Origin: a virus
Length of the DNA stretch: 41,858 bases
Direction: 5' to 3' (one strand)
IMG/VR virus record: IMGVR_UViG_3300012984_000003
Span: 1-41,858 of that record
Below the pieces are notes generated by a model that did not search any database, was not told where the DNA came from, and worked only from the letters and a program-made list of their open reading frames with translations. This document shows positions 2,789-8,115 of the stretch, piece by piece. The stretch's first letter is position 1; every line of letters begins with the position of its first letter. A program made the translations under genes and the position numbers.

Positions 2789-3154
2789 TCATTCTGGCCG
2801 GGTTTCTGCTGCTGCCTCATAGGCGATCATCATTTCTTCGGCGTCGTTCAGGTCTACCCCGTCGCGGGTGAACTCCCGTTCTAATGCCGTTTCCATTTTA
2901 GCCAGGCAGTTTTTGAGATAAACAAGGCTCGTATCTGGAAAGATCGATCGGCTCATTGTCTCCAGCGTAGCGCGCAGGCTCTTATTGAGGATCCCCCCAG
3001 CAAGGCGGGCACGGGCACAACCTCGCATTGCCTCGGACACTTTGCGGCGGTCAACCGTGGCGCACGCTCTCGCTAACTCCAGGTGCTGGATCGTCGTGAT
3101 AAATTCACCGTATCGGCTCGCTAAAATCACCTGCTGGATCGGGGTCAGTTGCAT
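2789..3154 (-). CDS. Hypothetical 121-aa helical protein
   Basis: The ATG at 3154 is preceded by AAGG and overlaps the end of the upstream methyltransferase-like gene by 10 bases. The sequence is helical, with several Arg-rich stretches (DRRKVSEAMRGCARARL) and an acidic C-terminal third (NDAEEMMIAYEAAAE). It has three Cys but no zinc-binding spacing. It is the last gene of the early operon before the terminator at 2761-2783. I do not recognise it. Confidence 0.7.
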   Translation of the reverse strand: MQLTPIQQVILASRYGEFITTIQHLELARACATVDRRKVSEAMRGCARARLAGGILNKSLRATLETMSRSIFPDTSLVYLKNCLAKMETALEREFTRDGVDLNDAEEMMIAYEAAAETRPE

Positions 3155-3918
3155 GGTCTTACCTTCATGTTGAATTGCGCCACGGCTTCGGCAAAGCCGC
3201 GCGGGGTCATTGATCGGATCTCTTTGGTGCGGTTGCTTCTGCCGCCGGTAGCGTACCAGCCAGGATTAACCGGCTTTCCGTCTTTGAAGAATGCAAAGGG
3301 TACGGGCACCTTTGTGGGCATCACAAAGCCGTTGCCGCACCATATGCCCGTTTTCTTCGGGTACGCGTCGCGCGGTGGGTACACCTGCGGAAACTTCGGG
3401 TGAACGTCGTCAACCGGCAAATACCCGCCGTACTCGTTCGGGTTGAATGAGTGATCAGCTGATCGCCATACCGTTGCCAGGTGGTTGCTGTGCGGATTCT
3501 CCAGCATCCACGGGCACCCGTCGCAAAGGATCGCCAGACGTTCAACCATGCGCGCCAGGATCACGGCACGGGCCTGATCGGCTTTGCGGTTCGGGTAGCG
3601 CGGGTGTGGCCTGCGCAGGTAAACGGGCAGGTGTTTATCATCCGGGTGATAAAACCACTTCGCGCCGGTGGTGGTTAAGAAAGTGCATTCCGCAAAGCTG
3701 GCGATAAACTCCACCCCGGGGCCAACCATCTGCGCGATCGTCAATTCGTGTTTGGCGCTGTGCTCGGCATGAAACCACATTCCAACTTTGACGTAGTTCC
3801 CCTCGCGCGTGATGCCCTCCGGGTGTTTTCCGTCAAAACTCCAGCACTCATAACCAGCGCGCAGCCACGGCCCGGGCATTACGTCAGAATGATTAAACAG
3901 GAAAATGGCCTTTTTCAT
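3145..3918 (-). CDS. Cytosine-C5 DNA methyltransferase-like protein
   Basis: 257 aa. The start at 3918 is chosen because GGTGAAG precedes it and the ATG overlaps the stop of the small membrane gene upstream. Features recalling the phage Dcm-like family are a Cys in AECTFLT (residues 76-82, motif IV position, usually PPC), the ENP motif at 140-142, the segment KKTGIWCGNGF, and a terminal MTPRGFAEAVAQFN helix. Such enzymes methylate or otherwise modify cytosine in DNA. The protein is shorter than cellular Dcm (over 400 aa) and lacks an obvious target-recognition domain, so sequence specificity is unclear. The Ala-Glu in place of Pro-Pro before the catalytic Cys is atypical. It lies in an operon with an adenine methyltransferase and dUTPase, consistent with protecting or marking phage DNA. 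Confidence 0.65.
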   Translation of the reverse strand: MKKAIFLFNHSDVMPGPWLRAGYECWSFDGKHPEGITREGNYVKVGMWFHAEHSAKHELTIAQMVGPGVEFIASFAECTFLTTTGAKWFYHPDDKHLPVYLRRPHPRYPNRKADQARAVILARMVERLAILCDGCPWMLENPHSNHLATVWRSADHSFNPNEYGGYLPVDDVHPKFPQVYPPRDAYPKKTGIWCGNGFVMPTKVPVPFAFFKDGKPVNPGWYATGGRSNRTKEIRSMTPRGFAEAVAQFNMKVRPCN

Positions 3919-4085
3919 TTCTTCACCAGTGCTTTGATAACCAACCACATGGAACCGATCACGGTGTACGGCCAAAACGCGATCGTGGCGTAGGCTTTCG
4001 CGTCGATCTCGCAGTCTGTTTCCTTCATGAAACCGAACATCAGGAACGCACCGCAAACGTAAAGGATCAGGGCAATAATAAACAT
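3915..4085 (-). CDS. Small two-segment membrane protein, 56 aa
   Basis: This short gene starts at the ATG at 4085 and ends with a TGA that overlaps the ATG of the next gene (ATGA). It encodes two hydrophobic segments, residues 1-20 (FIIALILYVCGAFLMFGF) and about 36-53 (IAFWPYTVIGSMWLVIKAL), separated by a short charged loop and ending in KK. An inner-membrane location is expected. No function is recognised. Coupling to the methyltransferase-like gene supports its being real. Confidence 0.7.
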   Translation of the reverse strand: MFIIALILYVCGAFLMFGFMKETDCEIDAKAYATIAFWPYTVIGSMWLVIKALVKK

Positions 4086-4125: not shown

Positions 4126-4722
4126 TTACATGCGAACCGGCATTACAACCAACTGGTGGGTGTTGCCGTTTGGCTCGGTCAACGTGAACGTGGCCGCTTT
4201 GGTGTTGTCACCCTGGAACGCGATCGCCGTGGTTTTGTACTTCATGCCCAGCGCCTTGCCGATAGCCTGCGGCAATGCCAGATATTCAGCGTTAAACGAG
4301 ATAAGCGGCACGCCTGCGGGCTGGCTCTGCGCTGGTGGGTAGACACGATCCAGATCCGGGAAATTGCCGTCTATCACTTCCACGGTGGCGACGTCCAGGC
4401 GGGTGGCCTTATAGTCGATTTCTTCCAGATCTTTGCGTTTCTCGATCACCTGCGGAATGTAGTAAACGATCCCCGCGTCGGTATCGATCACGGCGGTTTC
4501 AATGCCGCGCACCGTGGACAATCTGCCGATGTTCAGAATGATCCGGGTGCTGCGATCGATCTCCGGGTTCAGCAGGTTGCTGGAACGCAGCGCAACGTGC
4601 CCGCTGGTGCTCCAGATCTCGTCTTTGACGAACGCGATCCCGTTCAGGTAATAACGCACGTCGTTTTTTGCTTTGGTCAGGTTGTGCGCCTTAAGCGCGC
4701 CCATTGGTGCCAGTAAAATCAT
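4126..4722 (-). CDS. Half-size DNA polymerase III beta-clamp-like protein
   Basis: 198 aa, with GAGGTGAG before the ATG at 4722. DVRYYLNG (residues 21-28), followed by a GH-x-AL segment, matches the start of domain 2 of bacterial DnaN (there followed by a TDGHRLA motif). DGNFPD (118-123) matches the DGRFPDY that begins DnaN domain 3. FNAEYL (143-148) and the final VVMPVRM match FNVSYL and VVMPMRL. Domain 1 is absent and domain 3 is shortened to about 80 residues. Bacterial clamps are 366-aa dimers with six domains; a two-domain protein would need a trimer to make a ring, or may act as a decoy or clamp partner. No phage DNA polymerase is encoded, so it may interact with the host replisome. The homology is read by eye from conserved motifs. 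Confidence 0.7.
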   Translation of the reverse strand: MILLAPMGALKAHNLTKAKNDVRYYLNGIAFVKDEIWSTSGHVALRSSNLLNPEIDRSTRIILNIGRLSTVRGIETAVIDTDAGIVYYIPQVIEKRKDLEEIDYKATRLDVATVEVIDGNFPDLDRVYPPAQSQPAGVPLISFNAEYLALPQAIGKALGMKYKTTAIAFQGDNTKAATFTLTEPNGNTHQLVVMPVRM

Positions 4723-4739
4723 TTTCTCACCTCGCCGTA

Positions 4740-5396
4740 TTACAGAAGTTTCGCGCCGATCGTTTCCATGTCTAAGCGGCTCAAATACTCTGTTTTGATG
4801 CCGCCGCGTTTCTTCGGCTTAATCTCAAAAATAACGCTGCCTTTCGGGTTTTTGCTGCCCTCCTCGCCGGTGCGGGCATCCACGAAAGCGACGCGGCCAG
4901 ATTTAAACTTGCCGGTGGCCTTGTCGGTGTACCCGATGAAATTGATCACCGTCTGGGCACCCTGCAACGCCTTTAAAAACCAGGCGGTGGACGGGTCATT
5001 ATTCACCAGCATGATCGTGGTTACGCCGCGCTGTTTTGCCTGCTCGATCGCCTTTTCCACCCACGGAAGTGGATCCTCATAAGGTGGGTTACACCATGCG
5101 ATCCCGCCCTCGTCGCCCCAGTTGTTGCCGTCGGCCAGGCCGTTGGTTACTTCGGTGTAATACTGGGCCGCTTTGGCGTTCAGTTCGGTGGCGCATACGT
5201 CGATCGAGATAAACCCGAACTTTGCGGCCACAAAGTCAATAATCCACTGCGGTGTTGCCCAACTCTGGCGCGCCACGTCTGGCGTAACGCTGCCTTTAAA
5301 GCGACGGCCAGAAACAACGGCAGGATCCTGCGTGCCGCCATACTGCTGCGCATCTTCCCACGCGTCTGCGGTTACTTTGTCGTGTTCGTCTTTCAT
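4740..5396 (-). CDS. dam: DNA N6-adenine methyltransferase
   Basis: 218 aa of the phage Dam family (DNA_N-6-adenine-Mtase). WATPQ at 46-50 and the catalytic NPPY at 103-106 (WCNPPYEDPLPWV) are clear. IDVCATELNAKA at about 65-76 is the probable AdoMet-binding segment. It transfers a methyl group to adenine N6 in duplex DNA, usually at GATC for this family. Its start overlaps the dUTPase stop (ATGA). The genome is strongly enriched in GATC, so this enzyme may mark most of the phage DNA, giving protection from restriction or acting on replication or packaging. Specificity is inferred from family and composition. Confidence 0.9.
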   Translation of the reverse strand: MKDEHDKVTADAWEDAQQYGGTQDPAVVSGRRFKGSVTPDVARQSWATPQWIIDFVAAKFGFISIDVCATELNAKAAQYYTEVTNGLADGNNWGDEGGIAWCNPPYEDPLPWVEKAIEQAKQRGVTTIMLVNNDPSTAWFLKALQGAQTVINFIGYTDKATGKFKSGRVAFVDARTGEEGSKNPKGSVIFEIKPKKRGGIKTEYLSRLDMETIGAKLL

Positions 5397-5875
5397 GCGC
5401 CAGTGCTCCCGAAACCATTTTCACCGCGATCGGTAGCGTCCAGATCCTGCACCGGTTCAAACGGCAGGTTAAACGCTGGCACGATCATGAATTGCGCCAC
5501 TTTGTCGCCCACTTTGACGTTGCGCAGTTCGCTGCCGTCTTTGACCTGCGGCAGATAGCCCGGCTTATCGTTGACCAACTTCACCATGATTTCGCCGCGA
5601 TAGTCGCTATCGATCACGCCTACGCAGTTCACCAGACGCGTGGAGGCGTTAAAGCCCATTCCGCTGCGGCTGTAGATCAGCATTGCCCAACCGGCTGGGA
5701 TAGCTGCACGCAGGCCGGTGTTGCAAATGGCCGTGCCGTCTGGGAGGAACTCCACGCCAGTGGCGATCAGGTCAAAACATGCCGCGCCCTGGCTGGAACG
5801 CTGCGGCAGGATCGTGCCGTCGGTTAACTGAAATTGTACGGTTGGTAAGGTGATTTCTTTCGGAATTGCGCCCAT
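5393..5875 (-). CDS. dut: dUTPase
   Basis: 160 aa. The ATG at 5875 follows the upstream stop by one base and has GAGGG upstream. An alternative GTG nine codons earlier lies inside the previous gene. All five motifs of trimeric dUTPases are present: AACFDL (31-36), IYSRSGMG (67-74), GVIDSDYRGEI (86-96), GDKVAQFMI (123-131) and the C-terminal RGENGFGSTG (150-159). It hydrolyses dUTP to dUMP and pyrophosphate, lowering uracil incorporation and supplying dUMP for dTMP synthesis. No thymidylate synthase is encoded. It is coupled to the adenine methyltransferase gene downstream. Confidence 0.97.
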   Translation of the reverse strand: MGAIPKEITLPTVQFQLTDGTILPQRSSQGAACFDLIATGVEFLPDGTAICNTGLRAAIPAGWAMLIYSRSGMGFNASTRLVNCVGVIDSDYRGEIMVKLVNDKPGYLPQVKDGSELRNVKVGDKVAQFMIVPAFNLPFEPVQDLDATDRGENGFGSTGA

Positions 5876-5876
5876 C

Positions 5877-6077
5877 TTAAAAGCCCTCTTTCTTGCGGTC
5901 ACGGATAGCCTGATCTTTCTCGGCCAGTTTTGCTAATACCTCGGCGCGCATGTCGTCGGGCATGTCGCCAAAGATTGAATAAATAACGCCCTTAGCGGTG
6001 CCGTTTAATTCCATCGTGTAGGACGGAAACCAGATTTTAGCTTTTGCGCTGTATGGGGCTTTTTTTGTTGATGCCAT
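5877..6077 (-). CDS. Hypothetical 66-aa protein
   Basis: The ATG at 6077 is preceded by AAGGA. The protein begins with a basic MASTKKAPYSAKAKIW segment, then an amphipathic middle (GVIYSIFGDMPDDMRAEVLAKLAEK) and a charged tail (DRKKEGF). Its stop is one base before the dUTPase start, so it is almost certainly co-translated. No family is recognised. Confidence 0.7.
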   Translation of the reverse strand: MASTKKAPYSAKAKIWFPSYTMELNGTAKGVIYSIFGDMPDDMRAEVLAKLAEKDQAIRDRKKEGF

Positions 6078-6118: not shown

Positions 6119-6970
6119 TTATTTAACGTTGATAAACGGAACGGTGGCACCTGGCACCATTGTGGCCGGTAATTTACCATCCCAGTTAATGGCTTTGGTG
6201 TACTCGACCAACTGCGGGTTGGCTTGCAGGGCTTCGGACTTCGCTTTAATCGCTTTCGCTTCTGCTTCACCGGCCAACACCACGGCTTTGGCGTTTGCAG
6301 TCGCAACGGCCAGGCGGCTATCTGCTTCACCGTTGGCGCGGGTTACTGCGATCTGTGCGTCGATCTGCTCTTTCTCCAGGTTCTGGCGACGGGTGCGAAT
6401 ATCGATCTCGGCTTTCATGCTTTCTTCGATCTTCTCGTTGTACGCTTCACTAAACTGGACGTTTTCGATCTGCACGCTCTCAATGGTCACGATCCCTTTG
6501 GTGGTTTTGGTCAGGCTTTCCAGCACTGCCGCCGCCAGATCGTCACGCTTGGTTACGGTTTCCGCTGCGGTGAATTTACCAAAGGCAGATTGCAGGGCCG
6601 CAGGCGTCTGGCGATCGATAACGCGTGAAACTAAATTTTCCTCGTTGCGGTATTCGCTGTAGACCTCGCCAACCTTAGCAGGTGGGATCGTGTAGGTTAC
6701 GGAATAGCTGATCGCTGCATACTGCTGATCGCGGCTGTTACCGTGGCCCTTTGCGTAAACGCGGCTCTTACTCTGCACGCTAATGCGTTCAACGCTATCC
6801 ATGAACGGCATTTTAAAATGCAGGCCGGGATCCGCAGTGCCAACCACCGAACCGTTGCGAACAATTACGCCGCGCTCGCCCTGATCGATAATGTACCAGG
6901 AACCGAAAACAGCAGATAAGATCAGCAGAACAACGGCGACGAATGCGCCCAGAATTACACCAGCTTTCAT
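6119..6970 (-). CDS. SPFH/Band 7 (prohibitin-like) membrane protein
   Basis: 283 aa, with GAGGTAACACGTT before the ATG. One N-terminal membrane segment (residues about 5-28, ILGAFVAVVLLILSAVFG) is followed by an SPFH domain: IIDQGERGVIVRNG at 27-40, DPGLHFKMPF at 47-56, then GIVTIESVQIENVQF. A long charged coiled coil (about 165-245, EKEQIDAQIAVTRANGEADS and Ala/Lys/Glu repeats) completes it, as in prohibitin, stomatin and HflK/HflC. These proteins form cage-like oligomers in membranes and regulate proteases such as FtsH. In a phage it may protect phage proteins from FtsH, alter the membrane, or exclude superinfection; all are inference. Its own upstream region carries operator-like site h. 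Confidence 0.9.
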   Translation of the reverse strand: MKAGVILGAFVAVVLLILSAVFGSWYIIDQGERGVIVRNGSVVGTADPGLHFKMPFMDSVERISVQSKSRVYAKGHGNSRDQQYAAISYSVTYTIPPAKVGEVYSEYRNEENLVSRVIDRQTPAALQSAFGKFTAAETVTKRDDLAAAVLESLTKTTKGIVTIESVQIENVQFSEAYNEKIEESMKAEIDIRTRRQNLEKEQIDAQIAVTRANGEADSRLAVATANAKAVVLAGEAEAKAIKAKSEALQANPQLVEYTKAINWDGKLPATMVPGATVPFINVK

Positions 6971-7071: not shown

Positions 7072-7166
7072 TGCACGATGATCGGGGGTTGGCTTCCATG
7101 TAAGCCATGATTTTGCGTTGCTCGGTACTACTTCCAGTTTGGCCCACTTCGGTGGGCCTTTTTTTT
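7072..7166 (+). ncRNA. Candidate small RNA with intrinsic terminator
   Basis: Between the SPFH and primase genes, both on the minus strand, lies a plus-strand segment of about 95 bases. It has a hairpin near 7091-7106 (GGCTT...AAGCC) and a strong terminator (GGCCCAC-TTCG-GTGGGCC plus eight T). A terminator on the plus strand has no other plus-strand gene to serve. The RNA 3' end would be antisense to the extreme 3' end of the primase gene. It is supported only by signals, not by a known family. Confidence 0.4.
7141..7166 (+). terminator. Strong intrinsic terminator on the plus strand
   Basis: The stem GGCCCAC/GTGGGCC closes a TTCG tetraloop-like sequence and is followed by eight T on the plus strand. 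Read on the minus strand it has no T tract. Its A run overlaps the stop codon of the primase-like gene. Confidence 0.8.
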
Positions 7167-8115
7167 ACTTCTGCAAAGCGTCCAGCAGATCGCCAGCCCG
7201 CTGCGGTTCACGATTAAGCCCCATTGCCCAGTTGCCATAACGCGGCGTGAATACCGGTAACTGGTTCTCCTCGGCATAGCAAAGGCTGTGAAAATCTTCG
7301 GGCAGGGTGACGAAATTCAACCGCCGATCCTGGCGCGCCCAGCGCCGTGCCACGTGGTCAATGTTGCTGGATAGCCAGCAGATCCAGACCTCGCGCCCGG
7401 TGGCCGCAGCCGCCAGGCACCCGCTGATATAATCCACGGCCAGAAATATCGGGCCGCTCTCCTGCTGGTTTATCCGTGAAACGCTGCCCCACGTCAGATC
7501 GCCCGCGAAAAAATCGAACTCGCCGGCACCGTGAATTTTTACGACGTTGCAGGGGTCAGACTCCACCCCCTCGCCCTGCACCATGTAAAGCGGCTCGCAA
7601 ATGTAATGATCCTCGGCCAGATCTGGCACGTCGCCCCGGTAGCGCACCTTAATGGCTCGATCCGGTAAACCCTCCTCCCAGGTAAAGGGCGTTCCCACTT
7701 CGTCGTAACAGAGATCCAGCAGTGCCCGGCAACGTTCTGGCGTGGCCTGCTTCCCGTAGTTGTACACGGGCGCATTGGCGACGGCCTTTTGTGCTGCCTG
7801 CCGTTTCTCCACCGGGATCGCGTTGGCCCAATCTCCTAACACGTTCACGCAGACGTTGAACGGCTCGCCATAAAGGCGCTGGAATAGCTTTAGGCCGTCC
7901 ATAGCGCCGCAGCCGTTGCACCAGCTCCACCCGTGGCCGCGCTCGTCTTTTCCCTTGCTGTCCGTCCATCGCCAGCGATCCTTACCACCGCAGACCGGGC
8001 ACGATTGATGCCGCTTGTTAAACTGGCGATCGTCCATGCCGACAAGCTGGCGTAATGCCTGCTCCCATTGCCCGATCATGGCTTCGCGCACTTCGGCTAT
8101 TTTGTAAATTGCCAT
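7165..8115 (-). CDS. Primase-like protein with P4-type zinc ribbon
   Basis: 316 aa, with GAGGTAACGC before the ATG. Residues 39-69 form a zinc ribbon, CPVCGGKDRWRW followed by CNGCG (Cys 39, 42, 66, 69), typical of the P4 alpha/phage primase zinc-binding domain that recognises primer start sites. The remainder includes GPIFLAVDYISGCLAAAATG (about 220-239), which sits where a Toprim-like fold would be, though the canonical catalytic acid pattern is not clear. The gene lies head to head with the helicase gene at 8193, sharing a 77-base control region with an operator-like motif. A separate primase polymerase domain is not obvious, so it may act with the helicase or host primase. Confidence 0.75.
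   Translation of the reverse strand: MAIYKIAEVREAMIGQWEQALRQLVGMDDRQFNKRHQSCPVCGGKDRWRWTDSKGKDERGHGWSWCNGCGAMDGLKLFQRLYGEPFNVCVNVLGDWANAIPVEKRQAAQKAVANAPVYNYGKQATPERCRALLDLCYDEVGTPFTWEEGLPDRAIKVRYRGDVPDLAEDHYICEPLYMVQGEGVESDPCNVVKIHGAGEFDFFAGDLTWGSVSRINQQESGPIFLAVDYISGCLAAAATGREVWICWLSSNIDHVARRWARQDRRLNFVTLPEDFHSLCYAEENQLPVFTPRYGNWAMGLNREPQRAGDLLDALQK

Follow-up and report, generated by a model that had tools for sequence, protein, structure and literature searches.

The residues that form the dimer interface and the peptide-binding (CBM) pocket of the bacterial clamp beta (DnaN; TIGR00663, PF02767/PF02768) have been listed, Q149 of beta is known to contact DNA, and delta has an about 50-fold preference for monomeric over dimeric beta, which it binds chiefly through subsite I while also touching a beta loop (PMC11139829). 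PCNA and T4 gp45 share the clamp fold and form rings from subunits of two complete domains each. Phage proteins that act on the clamp interactome are also known, e.g. the Staphylococcus aureus clamp inhibitor Twort Gp168, which binds the DNA channel of the clamp (PMC11139829). Closest to the protein described here are the phage proteins of PHROG 3007, variously annotated as 'beta clamp', 'DNA polymerase III beta subunit' or 'RusA-like', which come from Skatevirus, Dhillonvirus, Murrayvirus, Skarprettervirus and others. One genome paper calls such a gene product a conventional sliding clamp (PMC9825357), a likeness by description only, and mycobacteriophage Adephagia gp35, which is toxic to its host (PMC11373665), is comparable only through the name 'sliding clamp'. 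In our search of the open-access literature, no account of a shortened phage clamp serving as a decoy came up. The family is already known by annotation; its pocket-only anatomy and the consequence of that anatomy appear to be undescribed in the open-access papers covered by our search.

The gene that we analysed, here called the mini-clamp gene, lies in a 41.9-kb virus contig (41,858 nucleotides, referred to as the window) among genes of DNA replication and modification:

3145..3921, minus strand: second DNA methyltransferase gene, downstream of the mini-clamp gene (phrog_757, 2e-58; start set at the ATG at 3921)
4126..4722, minus strand: mini-clamp gene, phrog_3007/DnaN-derived, an ORF of 198 aa with its ATG start at 4722
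4727..4733, minus strand: GAGGTGA, Shine-Dalgarno sequence of the mini-clamp gene
4740..5396, minus strand: Dam-type N6-adenine methyltransferase gene, directly upstream and in the same orientation (PF05869, 4e-40)
5393..5902, minus strand: dUTPase gene, in the operon of the mini-clamp gene (homologue annotated in Kc166B; position conserved in relatives)
7165..8115, minus strand: DNA primase gene, upstream of the mini-clamp gene (phrog_510, 4e-53)

Only 17 bp separate the Dam gene from the mini-clamp gene, and the Dam neighbour is present in 13 close-relative loci too. A small ORF lies between the mini-clamp gene and the second methyltransferase gene, whose copies in relatives are named 'Dcm methylase'. 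The operon of primase, dUTPase, Dam and second methyltransferase is conserved in close relatives of the window phage. It also holds a gene for a Band_7/SPFH membrane-associated protein (6119-6970, minus strand), as it does in Kosakonia phage Kc166B. For helicase and primase the phage has genes of its own. As a reading of the sequence without database searches (hereafter the sequence-only reading) had supposed, it seems to have no polymerase: families A, B and C (PF00476, PF00136, PF07733) gave no match in the window record, so that its replication presumably relies on the host polymerase.

The mini-clamp is homologous to DnaN, far above chance level. The phrog_3007 profile matched the window protein over its full length (E = 9.4e-36; residues 5-197 to profile positions 6-186 of 190), and tblastn returned 266 matching phage records, 259 of which cover at least 80% of the protein; identities run from ~24 to 60%, and the window sequence is at most 60% identical to any phage record listed. 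Taken alone, the window protein had no match in Pfam and only a marginal one to TIGR00663 (E = 0.0023; 16.9 bits against a cut-off of 137.65), and as a single-sequence query it found no relatives among viral contigs; an alignment of the phage-record relatives, used as the query instead, succeeded. The resulting family alignment of 42 sequences gave a profile that matched the solved Escherichia coli and Enterobacter beta structures at E ~1e-21 in two segments (beta 136-296 and 315-366). TIGR00663 matched 39 of these 42 members (best E = 7e-24) and PF02767, beta domain 2, matched 36. Together with the fold (Z = 13.5, see below), these results uphold the bacterial-clamp ancestry that the sequence-only reading had deduced from the landmarks DVRYYLNG (residues 21-28), DGNFPD (118-123) and VVMPVRM (192-198), all three of which are present.

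The family alignment also served as input for an AlphaFold2 model of the single chain, which was a clamp fold predicted with high confidence (mean pLDDT 92.6, pTM 0.89). The model superposed on E. coli beta 126-366 along its whole length (168 residues, Z = 13.5, rmsd 2.7 A), and that of a distant 170-aa member from Shigella phage EP23 agreed with it (pLDDT 94.1; 160 residues aligned to beta 126-366, Z = 13.9). Its two parts are as follows:

4339..4722, minus strand: domain 2-like part, residues 1-128 (model DSSP), aligned to E. coli beta 126-254
4129..4311, minus strand: half-domain, residues 138-198, corresponding mainly to the second half of beta domain 3 (~312-366; HMM domain 315-366)

About 73 residues within beta 126-366 lack a counterpart in the model. 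The structural aligner does not name them; by the sequence alignment, they belong to the first half of domain 3 (~255-312) and to the second helix of domain 2. Model DSSP agrees. The domain 2-like part keeps its first beta-alpha-beta-beta-beta half and one channel helix (7-16), and its second half consists of strands 61-65, 76-80, 85-89 and 110-117 with the channel helix missing. What follows is a single half-domain with helices 145-148 and 150-157 and strands 166-169, 177-182 and 188-193. Because an alternative HMM alignment carries the last segment into the first half of domain 3, the C-terminal segment may combine elements from the two halves of that domain. The mini-clamp is thus roughly 1.5 clamp domains, domain 1 and about half of domain 3 having been lost. 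The absence of domain 1 and of part of domain 3 had been recognized from the sequence; the accompanying description, 'domains 2 and 3 only', claims too much. Window-type members carry in addition an insertion of ~15-20 aa in the domain 2 part (KRKDLEEID region, residues ~90-105), which is missing from Skate- and EP23-type members and sets the window protein apart from other PHROG 3007 proteins, whose reduced architecture it otherwise shares.

The same model bears on the name that PHROG 3007 and RefSeq phage records give to this family, a RusA-like Holliday junction resolvase. That name is the one point in favour of a resolvase; the modelled clamp fold and its alignment take in all 198 residues, and no RusA family occurs among the Pfam and NCBIfam matches of the 42 members. 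We therefore rejected this identity, whose probability we regard as negligible. The label has spread from the clamp-fold phrog_3007 to RefSeq (NC_048112.1, NC_048067.1, NC_047862.1 and others), and the GenBank versions of those records often read hypothetical or beta clamp.

Could so small a clamp still form a ring? The mini-clamp lacks the beta dimer interface on either side, with I78, F106 and K74 missing from domain 1 and I272, L273 and E298-E304 from domain 3; the dimer-interface positions conserved in DnaN fall within the deleted parts. Of the residues that we take to line the channel of beta, R197 is retained in 0%, K198 in 19% and K235 in 6% of the family, and the DNA-contacting Q149 in 6%. 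One channel helix is gone, and the net charge of the window protein is near zero. A true processivity ring, PCNA-like or beta-like and built by the mini-clamp alone or with host DnaN, would agree with the clamp fold, with weak Foldseek matches to PCNA chains, and with the sliding clamp name used for such genes in one genome paper (PMC9825357) and many records. With its domains incomplete and both ring interface and channel residues lost, we nevertheless consider such a ring very improbable. The proposal that a two-domain subunit would mimic PCNA architecture (three subunits, six domains) was accordingly abandoned: PCNA and gp45 have two complete domains per subunit, whereas the mini-clamp has ~1.5 and no ring interface. 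The family's distribution points the same way in one case, since the T4-like Morganella phage vB_Mm5 encodes a mini-clamp in addition to a gp45-type clamp and a family B polymerase of its own, and a replacement clamp is not needed there.

In contrast to the ring interface, the residues of the CBM pocket, as listed for beta in PMC11139829, are largely in place:

4639..4662, minus strand: DVRYYLNG, residues 21-28, equivalents of pocket R152 and L155
4591..4608, minus strand: TSGHVA, residues 39-44, T172, G174 and H175 equivalents kept; R176 changed to V and L177 to A
4342..4371, minus strand: DGNFPDLDRV, residues 118-127, interdomain linker with the P242, R246 and V247 equivalents
4282..4296, minus strand: FNAEY, residues 143-147, N320 and Y323 equivalents (subsite II)
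4129..4149, minus strand: VVMPVRM C-terminus, residues 192-198, V360, M362, P363 and R365 kept; M364 changed to V

Compared with E. coli beta (sequence verified against 1mmi), the window protein retains 14 of the 18 residues of the pocket and 26 of 152 outside it. In a set of 31 family representatives less than 70% identical to one another, 72% of the pocket positions and 20% of all others match E. coli beta. As the pocket is conserved in cells as well, we used a cellular DnaN control of 31 representative sequences and considered the positions at least 80% conserved among them. The control came from a profile scan of genomes whose matches were for the most part cellular DnaN: an ORF of 340-400 aa was present at 78 of 80 loci, and the remaining two had cut ORFs that were also DnaN-like. 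At cell-conserved positions, the phages keep 74% of the residues within the pocket (n = 15) and 29% of those outside it (n = 34; rank test, P = 3e-5). Columns 150-158 were left out of this test, because relatives in viral contigs had been found through a DVRYYLNG-type motif. The signal persisted among 14 sequences found by tblastn only (65% versus 18%), and a permutation over 52 cell-conserved positions gave no value as high in 100,000 trials (~1e-5). The pocket residues are thus selectively retained in the phage family, although folding constraints at the interdomain seam could partly explain their retention. Changes at R176, L177, V344 and M364 in the window protein mean that affinity or specificity may differ from those of beta.

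A ring lost and a pocket kept suggest a protein that probably disturbs or redirects host replication and repair proteins rather than a working clamp. Judging from the residues retained, we think it likely that the putative pocket binds CBM-like peptides and that no ring is formed. The sequence-only reading had offered a decoy or adaptor on the host clamp; that class of function still fits, but with the pocket for the clamp's partners being what remains, the likely targets are clamp-binding proteins and not the host clamp. In this respect the mini-clamp differs from Gp168: being itself clamp-derived, it should bind clamp partners. Phage proteins were rejected as ligands, since the replication and early-region proteins of the window that we scanned contain no CBM-like motif; short motifs of this kind are weak evidence in such scans, and the one match, in the portal, looked like chance. 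This leaves host proteins as the likely ligands. We infer that the mini-clamp is soluble, is not loaded on DNA as a ring and binds QxxLF-type host motifs. Predicted ligands would be the host proteins with such motifs: Pol III alpha or delta, Pol II/IV/V, Hda, MutS/MutL, ligase and RecB. During infection, the mini-clamp would pull a subset of CBM proteins off the host clamp. Our main reading is therefore a non-ring beta remnant, a pocket module that most likely acts as a competitive decoy for host CBM proteins, to which we assign a probability of about 0.5.

An adaptor would use the same pocket differently, capturing host Pol III (alpha or delta) or repair factors while another surface binds a phage protein and so brings them to the replication or modification machinery. 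This reading is kept alive by the conserved operon of the window phage, by its helicase and primase genes and by its presumed dependence on host Pol III, no polymerase of family A, B or C being found in the window record; it also agrees with Xanthomonas phage PhiXhv-5 (L017, 2986-5600), where the mini-clamp gene sits directly between the helicase and family A-like polymerase genes. A second conserved interaction surface was not identified, however, and a T4-like phage whose replisome is complete carries a mini-clamp too. Moreover, the neighbours change with the branch: Dam and the second methyltransferase in window-type podoviruses, a ParB-like gene with a 57-aa ORF in Skatevirus-type phages (ParB-like neighbours at ~20 of 98 loci), Nmad5 in EP23, and no partner at all where the family member is a solo gene. 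In Salmonella phage Skate (L003, 6538-8510), and likewise at L010, ParB-like gene, 57-aa ORF and mini-clamp gene form a divergent operon amid head and tail genes. The linkage to DNA-modifying genes that the sequence-only reading had noted is thus real in the window phage and its close relatives; as a theme of the whole family it was rejected, the Dam/methyltransferase neighbours being confined to the window-type branch. A survey of 31 genomes or records, some of them fragments, found a family A polymerase in two (EP23 and Xhv5), family B in Mm5 and Pol III alpha in none. Overall, we regard the adaptor as unlikely, though worth keeping in mind.

The decoy is favoured over the adaptor because the gene moves from one unrelated context to another and is found even where the phage has a complete replisome. 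If the protein is indeed a CBM binder that forms no ring, a decoy is the likelier of the two roles, with an adaptor having somewhat less than an even chance. Since the window phage presumably needs Pol III, a decoy that hits Pol III would be harmful, and selectivity or a low dose must be assumed.

Another way in which the pocket might act is as a clamp-loader trap, in which the mini-clamp mimics an open beta monomer, occupies delta and blocks host clamp loading. The preference of delta for the monomer and the large retention of subsite I residues are consistent with this. The beta loop touched by delta presumably falls in the half of domain 3 that the mini-clamp has lost, and the phage itself presumably requires clamp loading; a trap of this kind is therefore improbable.

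Partial clamp folds also occur in many other phage proteins of 160-250 aa in BFVD, among them those of BcepNazgul, Seurat and Quinobequin-P09; clamps may have been reduced on more than one occasion.

Relative to DnaN, then, the mini-clamp shares sequence and fold over beta 126-366, the pocket residues and a VVMPMRL-type C-terminus, and lacks domain 1, the first half of domain 3, the second helix of domain 2 and the dimer interface; its channel residues are not kept and its score lies far under the DnaN cut-off. For the family as a whole we suggest, at slightly under even odds, that the 'pocket-only' clamps of hundreds of phages are soluble CBM receptors that draw on the host clamp interactome, either by competition or by redirecting it, with Pol IV, Hda, mismatch repair, delta and RecB as candidate targets. 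If so, a pocket-only clamp could serve host take-over or counter-defence, to which RecB, itself the carrier of a CBM (PMC13254535), is a possible link. The sliding clamp and resolvase labels on these genes would then be wrong, and the mini-clamp would be a natural example of a ring protein pared down to its interaction site. A widespread phage family would provide a natural means of competing with clamp-partner binding, a target of antibacterial research.
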